This document shows positions 5,448 through 61,914 of a stretch of DNA of 64,000 bases, piece by piece (within the stretch, counting starts at the first letter, position 1; the number at the start of each line of letters is the position of its first letter). A program made the position numbers and the translations under genes. Under the pieces are notes generated by a model. That model ran no database searches. It was given only the letters and a program-made list of their open reading frames with translations, and was not told the DNA's origin. This DNA is from Agelas oroides (taxonomy: Eukaryota; Porifera; Demospongiae; Agelasida; Agelasidae): positions 3,233,720 through 3,297,719 of the forward strand of contig OX422189.1 in the NCBI GenBank assembly GCA_949130485.1, read 5' to 3'.

Positions 5448-6602
5448 CTTCTCCCAGCCTCTGCAGCAATGCCTCCACCTCATCAACCTTCCCATGGAGT
5501 ACCAGAATCTCTAGCAGGTTGTAGTAGGTGGCAGTGGATCCTTCTGCTCTCTTCCAATACAGCAGGGCTTGGTATTTCTGATCATCCTCATCTGGATAGT
5601 TACATAACAGCTCTTCGATGTTCCATTCGTAGATGCCAAAATAAGAGGCAAGTTTCTTCAAGTCATGAAGGTTTTTGGCAAACCTTTTGAGAAATTCTTC
5701 AGAACAGTCATCATTGAGCATTTTACACTCAACACTTCCCAACATCTTCACCAGGTGTGAGTAACGCTCTGGTGTCATATCTGTAGCCCTTTGCTGCAGG
5801 TAGTACTCCAGTCCAGTTGGTTTGGTGGGCTCACTACCATCAGCAGCTACTTCTAGTTTACCTGAATGGCTTTTCACAGTAGTGTACTGTTGCATCTTAT
5901 CAATTACCACTTCATCAACTTCCAACTTCATTACACCACTTTTTGCCAAGATGGTCAGGTCCTCAGTATTTAGCTTATAGAAGATGTGGAGAATGCTCTC
6001 AGGAATGAGGAAGGTGAGGAGAATAGAACTAGGGTCATTACAGGAATATACCATGACTGCTCGCTTCACCCCAGTAGCCTTTTCCAATGATTTCTGTATT
6101 TCACCAATGACTTCCACAGTTGCATCCCTTGTATCCCCTTCTACTTCTACCTTTAACCTAATTGTACTATGGAACTGTTCAATTTCTCCATTGGTAATGG
6201 GTTCTGGCAGATCTTTGAGTTTCCTCTTACGAATGTTCTGTGCAGTGTATCGTTGTAGGACTTTCTTTGCTCTGTCACAACCAAAACTTTCAACTATATC
6301 TTCAAGCAGGTAGTAGTGTATGAAGTTAATGAACTGAGGACAGAGAGACTTGATCAGTTGCTTGGTAGTATTAGCATCTTTATAGATCTTAGGATGAACA
6401 TAAGTTTGCTCAGGATACAGAGGGTGAGAGTAGCAGTCCAGAAAGTCTTTGAGCTTTGCCATATTCACACTTGTGTCCAGAAGGTCAGTCACATCTGAAA
6501 ACATGATAGCAAATTCTCGGCAGAGGTGGTGTGTCTCCCTTGGATCTGGATGAGGTTTACTGGAAGAATCTTTTTGGGTCAGTTCTACTGCTCTGTTATT
6601 CA
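5448..6602 (-). CDS. NLR-1 exon 2: middle region with second Death-like domain
   Basis: 1155 nt, in frame with exons 1 and 3. The first 200 residues contain a helical stretch (YYLLEDIVESFG), a charged linker (RKRKLKDLPEPITNGEIEQF) and a strand-rich part (SSILLTFLIPESIL, then VMKLEVDEVVID). This order resembles a region often seen beside Death domains in animal immune-type proteins, but I cannot name it. The last 100 residues look like a second Death-type domain, with EEFLKRFAKNLHDLKKL, then YEWNIEELL, QKYQALLYWKRAEG and YYNLLEILVLHGK. The donor is GGAGAAG|GTAACT. This is the fastest-diverging coding part between the two copies, especially its first half. Confidence 0.8.
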
Positions 6603-6672
6603 CTGTAAAGTGCAAGAGATGTCATATCAATAAAATTCAGCAATGCCACTAAAGGTTGATTTCAATACATAC

Positions 6673-7000
6673 CTAGATGTTTTTTAGCTATGATCTCTGC
6701 TAAAGTGACATTATTTCCTCCAGCAGGATCACCCACAGCCTCCACCAACATCCTCCAGGTGGGAGAGCCACATTTCTGGTAGTTATAACCTTTCTGCAGC
6801 CACTTTACCAGAACTGCTTGGAGACACTTGTGAGGGTTTCCAGGATGAGCAGCACCAATTGCACTCTGATCAGAGGGAAGCAGTCCCAAAACCAGGCACA
6901 TGTCTGACCAGCTCCCAGCTAGACCAACCACTTCACGGTACACAGCAAGAGTATCCTCCTCAGCTGAGTACACAACAAACATTGGAGTGTATACTTTCAT
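6673..7000 (-). CDS. NLR-1 exon 1: Death domain
   Basis: First coding exon of NLR-1, 109 codons plus one base, starting at the ATG at 7000. Residues from about 28 on look like a Death-fold adaptor domain: a helix around WSDMCLVLGL, then LVKWLQKG, then SPTWRMLVEAV, ending in LAEIIAKKH. In NLR proteins such a domain recruits partners by homotypic contact. The donor is CTAG|GTATGT, so the exon ends in phase 1. A 70-bp intron (6603-6672) follows, and its acceptor TTTACAG|TG restores the frame. NLR-2 has the same exon length and start. A hand alignment gives 17 differences in 109 residues. An upstream non-coding exon cannot be excluded. Confidence 0.85.
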
Positions 7001-7408
7001 GTAACAATTGTGAAATAAAAGAAGATAGAGTTTTACTGAGACATTTTTATCAATGTCTTAGGAGGTCATGCCTAAAATGGTTACATATACTAATAATGAT
7101 GTTGAAGTGTGTTACGTGTGTCAGGTTCGCCACATGACCATCAATTGCTGATTGTTGAGATAAGGAAAAGACCAAGTGCTTTACAAAGTGCTTTTGCAGT
7201 TTACGCTACTTTTGAAATAGACTTACTATAGCCCACTCATGGTGCTTCTTAGCTGTAGTTGTACGACAACTGTCAGGGTTTCCTCCAAGGCTTGCCTAGT
7301 GTTCTCTACAACTATGTTTAATTGTATGATGTGTCAGTAATTTACAATGTACCTCCCATTTTTTTAAGCATTATTATGCTATTCATTTTACAGTGTTTAG
7401 TGGCATTT
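7001..7408. other. Upstream flank of NLR-1
   Basis: The likely NLR-1 promoter interval, well conserved with 60817-61212. I see no strong TATA box and no upstream coding exon. The sequence just 5' of the ATG is A-rich. Confidence 0.4.
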
Positions 7409-7811
7409 CAGAGGAGGAAGGACGCGATCACGTGATAGCTACAATTAACTGACATTCCAAGATCAAGAAGTGCGGACACAAGCTAAACAAACGGTTCTAT
7501 GGACAAAGTGGCGATGGGCGCAATGGGCGTGCAAGGTTTTCGACAAAACTGAACATGTCTGGCAGTTAAAATTGCCTCCTGTGACTCGCCTAGCGTTAAA
7601 CTGGCAACTTACAAGCTTAGCCTTCGAGGTGAGCCATAATAACCACTTTTGACTAGCCAGATGGCTTCACCTTAGTCGAAAACACTGAGCACCCGCCGTG
7701 ACTTAGTCCATAGAGCAAACTTTGTAACTTACATCCACGATTCTTGCCCTTGGAATGTCCTCAGAGCGCGCTATTGTCGCTACGACGTGACGTCATGTCC
7801 TCCCTCCTCTG
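7409..7811. mobile_element. MULE-like MITE with 9-bp target duplication
   Basis: 403 bp with inverted ends CAGAGGAGGAAGGAC... and ...GTCCTCCCTCCTCTG, plus a longer imperfect inverted zone (ACATTCCAAG near both ends). It is flanked by the perfect 9-bp repeat GTGGCATTT at 7400-7408 and 7812-7820. The duplicate locus has one uninterrupted site (GTTGCATTT, 61213-61221). A 9-bp duplication is typical of Mutator-like elements. No transposase is present. Confidence 0.88.
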
Positions 7812-8542
7812 GTGGCATTTATAGGCCAAAAGTCACCTTAAATCCATCGATATGAAAATATGTCTGTCGTATAAATATCTATTTTACCAAACGTATGTAA
7901 ATTTAGGTTTTTCTGGGAATGGTTACACACTTGTAAGCAATCGACACCAGGCCACTTTGCTCCTCCATGTGGCCTGCGGATGAGGTTAGCGGCATGTCCC
8001 CATACCCGCCCGCAGCTGCTGTGTGCTTATGTTTATACTGTGTGATTATGAATGCAGCTTGGATCAATACCAACTTACTCAGTTCAGAATCATCAACCTG
8101 AAGAAGAAGCTTATCTGCAGATGAAAGAATAAAGTTGAGTGCTAATAAGCACTTTGTCACACAAAAAACAAAGCTACCCAACACTTTTTAGAGCAACCAC
8201 TCCTGGGCAATATACTCCAGAGTGATTGTTCCCAATAGAAATCACTTACATATAAGCTATAGAGCAACTGCCTCCTTGAAGGAGATGTTTTCCCCCACTT
8301 CCAACCCCTCAACTGGGAAAACTCTTCAGAGAAAACATGGCCTACATAGAATAGTACAACTTAAATGTTCTCTACAGCCTGTCCTAAACTGGACCTATAT
8401 ATGAGACCAGCTAAAGGTACCAAAACCACTAGGCAAAAATGGGACAGATGCCAGAGCATCTTTTGAGACCTTGCCAAATGCAGGACGTGTGTAGGGAAGG
8501 ACTCCAAGCTACACTGACTGACTGGCTGGAACGATTTTACTA

Positions 8543-29456: not shown

Positions 29457-29548
29457 TTTCTCTCTTTGTTCTTTTGTCTCCTCATTTTCAGCTTTTGCTT
29501 TGAATCTTCCGACTGTAATGTATTGTTGCAAAGTGGCTAGCACCTAAT

Positions 29549-29666
29549 AGATGACCATACCACACTGAATACACCAGTTCTCGTCTGATCACTGAAGTTA
29601 AGCAGTGTCGGGCCTGCTCAGTACTTGGATGGGTGACCGCCTGGGAACAGCAGGTGTTGTAGACTT
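29549..29666 (+). rRNA. 5S rRNA-like unit 2 (near full length)
   Basis: About 118 nt with all typical blocks of animal 5S rRNA: GACCATACCACACTGAATAC, CTCGTCTGATCACTGAAGTT, AAGCAGTGTCGGGCC (A box), TACTTGGATGGGTGACCGCC (C box) and GTTGTAGACTTTCTTTT (pol III termination). The 5' strand AATAGATGACC does not pair well with the 3' GTAGAC, so helix I is imperfect and function is doubtful. Confidence 0.8.
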
Positions 29667-55809: not shown

Positions 55810-56995
55810 CTGTAGTAAGTTATGAAGAAACCTATTGCTGATTTAGCCCTATACTTCAAAGTGTTATTGTACCAACATTTTGGCACATTGACTTCAATTA
55901 TTCCTCGTTCACTAATGACTATGTGCAGTGTGGGGGACAAATCAACTTTAGTGTACCTACCATAATTATTTGAATACTACGTATGATCCAATTTTAATGT
56001 AAGAAATTCAATTTCAGGAATTTATCATGGCTATGTAAGCCAGAGTCTTAATTTATGCTAATCCAATTTATTGTAAGATAATGACTGAACCCAACCTCCA
56101 ACCTTCATGGCCTTCCTACCAGTCTCACAAACAGGTGTACTGTCTTCATAGTTTGGCAAAGTCCATGCACAATTCCAGGATATACACTTATCTAGCTATG
56201 CTCAGTGTAACCTTCATTGGTCGCAGAGTTCGACAAGGTATGTACACAATTTGAGGAAAAGCCAGCTGTACACTTACCTAGGTAGCGCAAGACACTTGGT
56301 ACTGCCTTCATCCGTTACAGAGTTCATTGAGGTCTGTACACAATTCTAGGAAAAACCAGCTATACACCTACTTAGCTATATGAAAAGGTGTGTCCACAGA
56401 CTATTATTGTCAGGTGGCAATTCAGTTTCTATTCCTTACGGCCGAAAATCTGCTAAAATGCCAGATATCACTCGCATATCAGTCTGGCTAACTCATTCTT
56501 CCATGTTTGCTGTACATCGACAATGGTAAGGTGTTCTACTGTCAATAGCTTGCTAGTATATTCTCCAATGAGACTACATCATGATATTGTATTACCTACT
56601 AAGGGCATGTGTGGACTTGATTTTCACTCACTTCCTTGTGTGTACAGTGCACATATACAGCTAAGACATACCTCAGCCTCTGAAAGGGTGCTGCTGCAAG
56701 TGACGCAAGCCCTTCAGATGAGAAGATACAATCCTTGAAACTGCAGAATGAAGAACATTATAGGTACACACAGATGCTGTAAGTGTGAAGTATCATTCAG
56801 CTGCTGAATTCTTCTCGAATAGCTATGTGATCAACTATAGCCAATTTATGACTCTGCAGGTGTGTAAGTCATGTGCTTTCAACATACTATCGTGTGTTAC
56901 TTACATTAAAAGATGAAAGCAATATTCAGGAACTCATAATACGTAAGTATACCACCATCGTCGTGCCCAATGAATAAATTTACTAACACTCTTAC

Positions 56996-58535
56996 CTCAC
57001 TCTGAAGTAATACCGTCCACTTTGAGCCAATGTGTGCACCTGCCTCGTCAACTGAAATGCAGCTGCTCTCCCGAAAAAACACTGTTCAAAACTCAAATCT
57101 GGTGGTAACTTGTAACCTGTCACGACAATATGATGCATATCAGCTGCTGATAGAATATCGTCTCTAAAAACATGGGGCATGTCACATGCCCAGTCAGCTT
57201 CGTATGCACAACTAGCCAGCATTTTCATTGCATCCTTGCAAGAATTTATCGGAATTTGGAACCTATCATATGACTCAGGCGCAAGTCCAGTATAGAATTG
57301 CCAAAGGAAATTGAAACCTGATTTCTGTACCATACGCTCCATTTGTTTTGTTAATGGCTGGCTATGAACATGTAGTGCAGCAAAGAATTGCTGAAGCAGT
57401 GGAGAAGAAAACCGAAAACATTGTTTTTCACTGTTGTACAATGGTTTGCTGTAAGTATGTAGCAGTGCAAACCCACTCCCATAACCAAGAGACGTTGCTC
57501 CTGGTAAGGTCAAGTGGAAAGATTCACTGCTGAGATTCTCAAAAGCCGCAGTCGATACTTTAGAAAGAAATGACTGCACAGTGCTGGGAAGCTGACATAA
57601 GGAGCCTGGTGGTGTTTCAATATGTAGTGGTTTTGGAAATTTTGATTGTAAAAGCAGCAACGTCATGTTTGTGAAAAGCTCAGTCCATGTAACTGGAAGC
57701 TCACAAGAGGGAATGTCAAAAAGATTGTTGCACACAAACAGAAGAGTGTACAAGTACACTGGGATGGATGCTAACAGCCTCAAATCAGGGTTGCTAGTAA
57801 GATGCAGACAGAAATCTTCCACTTTTGATGGTCTAGAACTGAAGAATTTGACAACTTGCTTGCAGATTTGATTGTCAGAAAGATTGAGGAGTTCAAGTTG
57901 CTTGACACTTATTTCACTTGGTGTGCAGGTAGATGTTATCAACACAACAGACTTTGGAAGAAACTTTCGAGAAGCCAAGTTGCTGAAAACACCACCACTC
58001 TGTTGCTGGTTATATCCATCCAAGAGAAAGACAACACCTTTCCCTCGCTTCTTCATAATCCAACTGAAAATATTCTCGGTTTCAACAGGAAGTAATTGTG
58101 ATAACAACTGATTAAGTGTAATTTTTTGGTTCTGGAATTGAGAACAGTCTACCCAAAACATGAAGGTGGTGCTTCTCATTCCATACCCTTTAGCCCAGTA
58201 CTGGCAGAGTTTAGATAACAGAAATGACTTTCCCTGGCCTGGTGCTCCTTTAATTAGAATACATGATTGTGAAGACCATGAGTGGTCACTAGTTGTGCAT
58301 GCATTTACCAGGGCTTTCATTGAAACTAGGGTAACACTAGAAGGGAACTCATCTTCTATATCATAATAGCAGTTTGAGTAGTCCATGTTCTTTAGTTGTT
58401 TGCTGGCTTGTGTGGTAAGTTCTCCCAGTCTCTGGTCAAACTGTAGTAAATTGGGTACTTCTCTCCACTGCTGCCAACCGTTGTGTTCCCGGTACTGCTG
58501 CTTCAGCCATCTGCTGGCATGGAGCACAACAGGCC
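56996..58535 (-). CDS. NLR-2 exon 3: NACHT ATPase and winged-helix region
   Basis: 1540 nt, the same length as in NLR-1. Walker A CILIKGAPGQGKSFLLSKL and Walker B-like KGVVFLLDGYNQ are unchanged between copies, as is FRFSSPLLQQFFAALHV. My hand alignment gives 37 differences in 513 residues. Ends GTGAG|GTAAGAG. It binds ATP and should control oligomerisation of the receptor; the acidic pair after DG in Walker B is replaced by N-Q, as in NLR-1. Confidence 0.9.
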
Positions 58536-58603
58536 CTGCAAGAAGCATTAAATCATATCCATTACTACCAACATTATACAAAGATTTATTGGTGGGCAGT
58601 TAC
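58536..58603 (-). other. 68-bp intron 2 of NLR-2
   Basis: GTAACT...TTCTTGCAG. One base shorter than in NLR-1, so if retained it shifts the frame and stops within the intron region. It explains why exons 2 and 3 look like two separate ORFs. Confidence 0.88.
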
Positions 58604-60175: not shown

Positions 60176-60370
60176 TGTTGATTCATTTCTCACTCTTTCA
60201 GCACCCATTCATTGTTAATGAGTACCTATCTTTGCCTATACTATCAAGCTTCGATCTACATGAAGATAAATGGGAACCCATCATGAAATTCCTTAATGTG
60301 TGCTGTGTGTGTACATGAACAATCAACGAACCACATCTCCCTTATAAAACAGGCCTAGATGTTATGCAAA

Positions 60371-60433
60371 GTCACCCGCTGCGCAGGACGCGTTTCGGCC
60401 AATACCAGGCCTCATCAGCTGCGCTGGGGTGAC
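60371..60433 (-). ncRNA. Hammerhead self-cleaving ribozyme (type I, short stem III)
   Basis: Reading the minus strand 5' to 3': outer stem I GUCACCC, internal loop, inner stem I GCGCAG, core CUGAUGA, stem II GGCC-UGGUAUU-GGCC, core GAAA, a palindromic stem III CGCG, cleavage triplet GUC, then CUGCGC and GGGUGAC closing stem I. All invariant core bases are present, and stem I is 6 plus 7 perfect pairs around a 2/3-base internal loop. Predicted cleavage is between 60387 and 60386. The tiny self-complementary stem III resembles hammerheads of newt satellite 2 and Penelope-like elements, which often act as dimers. It lies in the sense strand of NLR-2 intron 1, about 100 nt after the 5' splice site. 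Confidence 0.88.
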
Positions 60434-60488
60434 CGGGAGATGGGGACTGCTATCTCATGCACAGAATGCAGTCAGGTGGCATGCATAC

Positions 60489-60816
60489 CTGGATGTTTCT
60501 TTGCTATGGTCTCTGCTAAAGCAACATTATCTCCTCCAGCAGGATCACCCACAGCCTCCACCAACATCCTCCAGGTTGGAGAGCCAAACCTCTGGTAATT
60601 GTAACCTTTCAGCAGCCACTTAACAACAACTGCTTGAAGACACTTGTGAGGGTTTCCAGGATGAGCAGCTTCAATTGCGCTCTGATCAGAAGGACGCAGT
60701 CCCAAAACCAGGCACATATTTGACCAGCTCCCAGCTAGATCAACCACCTCACGGTACACAGAAAGAGTATCCTCGTCAGCTGAGTACACAACAAACATTG
60801 CAGTACATGCTTTCAT
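60489..60816 (-). CDS. NLR-2 exon 1: Death domain
   Basis: 328 nt from the ATG at 60816 to the donor CCAG|GTATGC, the same length and phase as NLR-1 exon 1. Death-fold landmarks WSNMCLVLGLRPSDQSAIEA, VVKWLLKG, SPTWRMLVEAV and LAETIAKKH. Starts MKACTAMFVVYS against MKVYTPMFVVYS in NLR-1. The gene extends about 30 kb to the left. Confidence 0.85.
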
Positions 60817-61639
60817 CTAACAATTGTGAAATAAAAGAGGATAGAGTTTTACTGAGACATCTGTACCAGAGATCATCAATGTCTTAGGAGGTCATGCCTA
60901 AAACGGTCACATATACTAATAATAAGATGTTGAAGTGTGTTATGTGTGTCAGGTTCACCACATGACCATCAATTGCTGATTAGGTTGAGATAGGGAAGAG
61001 CCCAAGTGCTTTACTTACAATTTTTTGCACTTTTTGAAATAGACTTATGTATCCCACTCATAGTGCTTCTTAGCTGTAGTTTTAGGACAACTGTCAAGGT
61101 CTCCTTCAAGTAGTGTTCTCATAGCTATGTTTATACTGTGTGATGTGTCCACAATTTACAATGCACCTCCCAGCATTATTATGCTATTCATATTATGCTT
61201 TTGCAGTGTTCAGTTGCATTTATAGGCCAAAAGTTATCTTAAGTCCATCGATATGAAAATATGTCTGTTGTATAAGTATCGATTATACTGATACTTTCCA
61301 AACGTATGCAAATCCAGGTTTTTCTGGGAATGGTTACACATGTGCAAGCAATCAATACCAGGCCACTTTGCTCCTTCATGTGGCCTGTGGACAAGGCTAG
61401 GGGCATGTCCCCATACCTGGTGTGTGCTTATGTTTATACTGTGTGATATGACTGCAGCTTAGATCAATACCAACTTACTCAATTCAGAATCATCAACCTG
61501 AACAAGAAGCTTATCTGCAGAGGAAATAATAAAGGTGAGTGCTAATAAGCACTTTGCCACATAAAGTTAGTCTTTGTTCAACACCTTGTAGAGCAACTAA
61601 TCTCCTGGGCAATATATTCCAGAGTGATTGTTCCCAATA

Positions 61640-61914
61640 GGGGCTTTCCAAAACCACGCCCCCTCCATTAAATTTTCTCCCAGCATCCTGATCTACCTGC
61701 CATAGTTAGTACTCTATGACTGCAGACTGACTTGCAAATTTCAGCTTTATACCATGTTTCATTCGTTGGATATGCAAGCTTCAAGTTTGAAACTTTCCTG
61801 TATATTAGATGGAGATTGGGGCCAGATTGGGTCTTCCTAATGAGTACTAAGTCATGTCTAAATTCAGGACAATCAGAGGTACTCCCCAAAAGTGGGTGGG
61901 TTTTGGAAAGCCCC
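61640..61914. mobile_element. 275-bp MITE specific to the right copy
   Basis: Inverted ends GGGGCTTTCCAAAACCACGC... and ...GGGTTTTGGAAAGCCCC. Flanked by ATA / TATA; the left copy has an uninterrupted site at about 8236 (CCCAATAGAAATCAC). The short TA-containing target could be a TA or a 3-bp duplication. Confidence 0.85.

Follow-up and report, generated by a model that had tools for sequence, protein, structure and literature searches.

An intronic hammerhead motif in an NLR gene of the sponge Agelas oroides probably lies in a 5′-truncated Penelope-like insertion

The hammerhead motif in intron 1 of the NLR-2 gene of Agelas oroides can be assigned with high confidence to a 5′-truncated Penelope-like insertion that carries a minimal, dimer-dependent type I hammerhead, and the lone intronic copy would cut poorly or not at all. 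The motif was studied in a 64,000-nucleotide stretch of DNA (the window), and related sequences were sought throughout the genome (259 Mb in 141 contigs).

Results

The hammerhead motif and its missing stem III

The first-pass annotation had called the motif a complete hammerhead ribozyme, and our reading agreed with it on the coordinates, the core, the two-part stem I, stem II, the minus strand, and the predicted cut at 60387/60386 (Table 1). Completeness held for the core, stems I and II, and the GUC triplet, but not for stem III, in whose place there is only the palindrome ACGCGU. These 6 bases have to provide both strands of the stem as well as its loop; within a single molecule, an A-U and a C-G pair would close a loop of 2 nt, and a stem III of this kind cannot form in the window motif. 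A monomeric hammerhead needs stem III before its cleavage site. The window motif is not a complete monomeric hammerhead; its type I features are the CUGAUGA and GAAA core, stems I and II, and a cleavable NUH. Since ACGCGU is a perfect palindrome, two copies could pair through it and so form a dimer. The Penelope hammerheads described in excerpts of PMC7761336, PMC6155905, and PMC6466107 are likewise minimal and without helix III; they may act as dimers, for which palindromic loops and tandem copies are needed. The window motif belongs to a type that excerpts of PMC7761336 and PMC6466107, both citing Lunse et al. 2017, describe as working in the form of tandem dimers, and ACGCGU corresponds to the palindromic stem III loop that the excerpt of PMC6466107 gives as a mark of dimeric hammerheads.

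Table 1. Features of the insertion and of NLR-2 in the window. The motif, its two core segments, the palindrome, and the CATG junctions were read from the sequence.
Feature	Position	Strand	Remarks
Insertion, 5′-truncated element corresponding to the 3′ part of the pseudo-LTR	60314-60480	minus	167 bp, or 162 bp when the CATG extending into it at each end is assigned to the target
Minimal type I hammerhead motif	60371-60433	minus	core, stem II, and a two-part stem I; lacks a usable stem III
Stem I, distal part	GTCACCC 60433-60427 with GGGTGAC 60377-60371	minus	7 pairs
Stem I, proximal part	GCGCAG 60424-60419 with CTGCGC 60386-60381	minus	6 pairs
Core CUGAUGA	60418-60412	minus	
Stem II	GGCC 60411-60408 with GGCC 60400-60397	minus	4 pairs
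Core GAAA	60396-60393	minus	
Predicted cleavage site GUC/CUG	60387/60386	minus	GUC ends at 60387; position from hammerhead rules
Palindrome ACGCGU in the place of stem III	60393-60388	minus	
CATG at 5′ junction, possible target-site repeat (left copy)	60480-60483	minus	
CATG at 3′ junction, possible target-site repeat (right copy)	60314-60317	minus	
First visible NLR-2 exon, open frame	60489-60816	minus	ends at inferred 5′ splice site; no Pfam hit
NACHT-coding part of NLR-2	56995-58599	minus	Pfam NACHT, E 7.9e-17

The parent element

Two pairs of genomic places, the members of each pair similarly oriented and separated by 3.55 kb, yielded two longer stretches, L009 and L010, in which direct repeats (spaced 3553 and 3558 bp, respectively) flank a coding region. 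The window insertion is 100% identical to L009 at 1973-2139 and again at 5526-5692, and it represents the last 167 bp of these repeats, which we read as pseudo-LTRs. The repeats of L009 measure 416 bp and are 99.8% identical. Each repeat in both stretches holds one hammerhead, giving two cores per stretch about 3.55 kb apart, and the window itself has a single match to the element, the intron copy. L010 is a partial tandem in which 2280 bp are repeated at the 3558-bp spacing with 99.96% identity, as expected of Penelope-like elements.

The coding region between the repeats has a GIY-YIG domain near its start (residues 148-237; E 1.4e-5 and 2.9e-5 in L009 and L010, above the Pfam cut-off) and continues with a reverse transcriptase (residues 652-862), for which the RVT_1 matches (E 6.7e-6 and 2.6e-5) both fall under the Pfam gathering cut-off. 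It is interrupted by a stop in L009 and open for 1012 codons in L010. The same order, with an N-terminal GIY-YIG followed by reverse transcriptase, is reportedly a feature of the Naiad/Chlamys clade of Penelope-like elements described by Craig and colleagues in 2021. A search of the PDB gave no sequence match, which we counted against our reading. Together with GIY-YIG and the sub-cut-off RVT_1 match, the element displays partly tandem pseudo-LTRs, 5′ truncation, and a common 3′ end, and the host of the hammerhead looks like a Penelope-like element and not a retrozyme. The suggestion in the first-pass annotation that the motif is the scar of a retrozyme-like element was thus borne out as regards a retroelement scar but not as regards the retrozyme.

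At 121-528 of L010, beside another copy of the element, there is a reading frame for a Death domain (Pfam Death, 29.3 bits, above the cut-off); a similar frame near L039 was noted by eye only.

Copies in the genome

The 40-nt core occurs in 169 exact copies in the whole genome. A looser core, CTGATGA-N4-34-CGAAACGCGTC, was found 216 times in the genome and its reversed-pattern controls 0 times; these counts show the motif to be a real repeated unit. Identity reaches beyond the core: among the 40 scored matches, drawn from 2495 first-look candidates, 123 bp were identical in 26 and all 167 bp in 17, the window copy being included in both counts. A downstream 39-mer has 380 genomic copies with no more than 2 mismatches, and a 24-mer from the 3′ end has 647 exact copies.

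Two loci (L122 and L123) hold diverged relatives of the hammerhead with a longer loop II and an unchanged ACGCGUC, so more than one subfamily exists. Beyond the window, the 24-mer of the pseudo-LTR recurs ten times on one strand in steps of ∼16-21 kb (G000:C1:1259455-1423688), which suggests a large tandem array.

Covariance score and folding

A covariance scan found no hammerhead family at the Rfam gathering score anywhere in the window. With permissive settings and 451 bases searched, the best sub-threshold match was Hammerhead_HH9, at 24.4 bits compared with a gathering score of 52 (E 7.9e-4). Such a score is, formally, what the first-pass annotation had said would refute the ribozyme. Low scores are to be expected when a motif lacking stem III is compared with a family that possesses it, and we do not take the sub-threshold value as proof against a ribozyme.

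In folding calculations, the 65-nt sequence was more stable than its shuffled versions by 3.4 s.d. (z −3.42). The minimum-energy fold contained stems I and II, but its core GAUG was paired with CGUC, an arrangement other than that of the hammerhead core, and a co-fold of two copies joined the strands by stem I and GAUG/CGUC and not via the ACGCGU palindrome; programs of this type do not model the hammerhead core. The genomic copies of the hammerhead are nearly alike (14 distinct 64-mers) and differ too little for covariation to be assessed.

We give almost no credence to the idea that the resemblance to a hammerhead arose by chance. Shuffling predicts 0.32 occurrences of a loose core per window, so the core by itself proves little, and the sub-threshold Rfam score and a minimum-energy fold lacking the hammerhead core would also suit a chance match; what such a match leaves unaccounted for is a perfect 13-pair stem I and a 4-pair stem II placed around the core, the fold z-score, and the position of the motif in a pseudo-LTR, where hammerheads of Penelope-like elements have been reported.

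Ends and junctions of the copies

We compared 51 copies chosen with a 39-mer that does not reach the end, so that the 3′ end played no part in their choice; copies selected through the 3′ end itself were left out of account for that end. The 3′ end GATTGTTCAT was common to 47 of the 51, and the 5′ ends on contig C1 ranged from the 39-mer itself to >1.5 kb upstream. CATG was present at 23 of 37 visible 5′ junctions on C1, compared with 1 of 37 in a control flank stretch. The window copy is flanked by CATG on both sides; a repeat of 4 nt that is also common is weak evidence for target duplication in the window copy alone. The combination of a common 3′ end, variable 5′ ends, and CATG is the pattern that target-primed reverse transcription with early stops would be expected to leave. 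In the Anolis Penelope-like element, according to excerpts of PMC11167929, reverse transcription starts inside the template and genomic copies end there, and hammerhead cleavage was not needed for insertion in vitro.

These ends also bear on the proposal that the insertion is a non-autonomous non-LTR retrozyme, a small circular-RNA element, instead of a Penelope-like fragment. Many hammerhead-bearing copies are indeed short, and metazoan retrozymes of ∼170-400 nt are known (excerpts of PMC7229834), but the 167 bp are identical in sequence to the pseudo-LTR of a coding element and form an unbroken part of it, and the graded 5′ ends are unlike those of a fixed unit. Among the loci fetched, most of which are short so that distant neighbors would be missed, two cores were seen only in L009 and L010, where they belong to the two pseudo-LTRs. 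We regard the proposal as highly improbable. A metazoan retrozyme in the form of non-coding tandem repeats of ∼150-450 bp was likewise rejected, the copies being graded truncations of a coding element.

Positions of the 5′ ends relative to the cut

Short copies are common in such elements. By gapped alignment, 21 of the 51 exact 39-mer copies on C1 have their 5′ end within −9 to +34 of the cut site, 4 end at +35 to +120, 13 at +121 to +350 (where the position of L147 is a lower bound), and 13 beyond; the tally includes copies with a duplicated flank, and L075 carries an insertion and is not truncated. Per base, this amounts on C1 to 0.0121 ends in −9 to +34, compared with 0.0017 in the next 86 nt upstream. 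For the 3′ side, a crude bound of 0.0065, uncorrected for mutation, came from 647 exact copies of the 3′-end 24-mer and 503 exact copies of a 24-mer located 39 nt upstream. The ribozyme region as a zone of reverse-transcriptase stops is a lead only; structure acting as a road-block, or simply an abundance of short copies, would explain the stops.

A footprint of cleavage before reverse transcription, with copies starting exactly at the CUG that follows GUC, was considered and rejected, as starts at the cut do not form a clear peak. Among the CATG-led matches, the 100 listed of 148 gave 88 places after overlapping starts were merged by hand. Twenty of these were set aside as cores that had seemingly decayed from CGCG to CATG, a change expected of CpG decay; when they were read upstream, 13 proved to contain the core, 2 the element with an internal deletion, and 1 (L136) was cut off in stem II. 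The remaining 4 (L126, L132, L133, and L135, with a flank common to L132 and L133) have no element upstream and are either true truncations or foreign flank. The other 68 listed places, most of them unread upstream and at least one (C1:9189468) not a truncation, include 7 that start exactly at the cut, compared with 10 at −1, 7 at −4, and 7 at +5. Three of the 7 starts at the cut share one flank (L073, L074, and L113), and where the target was CATGC, its final C could account for some such starts. Reverse transcription of pre-cut RNA is not supported as the main cause of the 5′ ends.

NLR-2, its paralog, and cleavage in the intron

The assignment of the gene to the NLR family holds, given the NACHT match downstream of the insertion; a further frame on the same strand has a borderline Death domain (22.0 bits compared with 22.6). 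The open frame at 60816-60475 runs into a likely splice site, and NLR-2 is probably spliced at 60489/60488. Measured from this putative 5′ splice site, the predicted cut lies 102 nt into the intron, close to the figure of about 100 nt given in the first-pass annotation.

The protein encoded by the NLR-2 exon is 87% identical to that of the paralogous NLR-1 exon at 6677-6832. Window positions 6665-8238 and 60481-61640 are paralogous NLR parts with ∼85% DNA identity, ∼53 kb apart. The NLR-1 intron had been put forward as a natural control lacking the ribozyme; the insertion is indeed absent from it. The alignment between the two introns breaks off at the insertion point, however, which leaves no clean empty site for comparison and makes NLR-1 a poor control. 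Elsewhere in the window, a 5S rRNA gene occupies 29547-29665 on the plus strand (103.6 bits).

The first-pass annotation had also proposed that the pre-mRNA cuts itself and that NLR expression is thereby coupled to the speed of splicing, an idea that found no support in view of the unusable stem III and the single copy in the window. We consider it very unlikely that a working ribozyme in the NLR-2 intron cleaves the pre-mRNA in cis and, in a race with splicing, determines expression. The sense orientation, the distance from the 5′ splice site, the intact core, and the perfect stems I and II would all be fitting, and intronic hammerheads are known in amniote genes (excerpts of PMC6155905); against these stand a palindrome suited to dimers in place of stem III, the identity of the one window copy to dispersed copies, and scores under the gathering level for all hammerhead models. 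Because a dimer-type hammerhead is present in the window as one copy only, little or no self-cleavage of the intron copy would be expected, with some weak activity of the monomeric form still conceivable. Nothing suggests that the window copy has been under selection for a function in NLR-2, since it is identical to many copies elsewhere, and control of NLR-2 by the motif is unlikely. An extremely improbable variant is cleavage in trans, in which hammerheads of a transcribed element would pair via ACGCGU with the NLR-2 copy and the mixed dimer would cut the pre-mRNA; if this were true, an innate-immune gene would sense retrotransposon activity.

Discussion

We propose that a recently active Penelope-like retrotransposon placed a 167-bp, 5′-truncated copy of its pseudo-LTR in sense orientation into intron 1 of NLR-2, 8 nt past the 5′ splice site. 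Starting from the common 3′ end (...GATTGTT) at a cleaved target site, in many cases CATG, reverse transcription would have ended prematurely, and the element's own hammerhead would have travelled with the inserted copy. In the parent element, the two pseudo-LTR hammerheads, ∼3.55 kb apart, may join via ACGCGU into a working dimer, and the lone intron copy, with no partner in the window, would cut poorly or not at all.

Elements and ribozymes of these kinds are already known. The window family resembles the minimal type I hammerheads known from Penelope-like elements (Cervera and de la Pena 2014; Lunse et al. 2017, as presented in excerpts of reviews) in its place in the pseudo-LTR, its type I topology, the reduction of stem III to a palindrome, and the expected action as a dimer, and no difference in kind from the hammerheads so presented was found. 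Poseidon of Anolis (PAc), as portrayed in excerpts of PMC11167929, is similar in having a hammerhead in the pseudo-LTR region, 5′ truncation, an internal start of reverse transcription, and copies with a common 3′ end that lies downstream of the hammerhead; it differs in that GIY-YIG follows the reverse transcriptase there and precedes it here, and in that its junctions favor AT-rich DNA whereas those of the sponge element favor CATG. The amniote intronic hammerheads of RECK and CTCL (excerpts of PMC6155905) are alike in their intron location and proposed retroelement origin; those are conserved across species, whereas the one in the window is a recent, repeated, minimal copy. Our literature search found no report joining a hammerhead ribozyme, an intron, an NLR gene, and a transposable element.

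The motif in NLR-2 is explained without a regulatory role. The genome contains hundreds of copies that include the ribozyme in whole or in part, and such motifs readily land near genes. The many young copies with graded 5′ ends provide a map of the stops made by the element's reverse transcriptase. The role of the hammerhead in Penelope-like elements is called a mystery in excerpts of PMC7761336, and while the present data do not settle that question, a map of this kind could help to address it.
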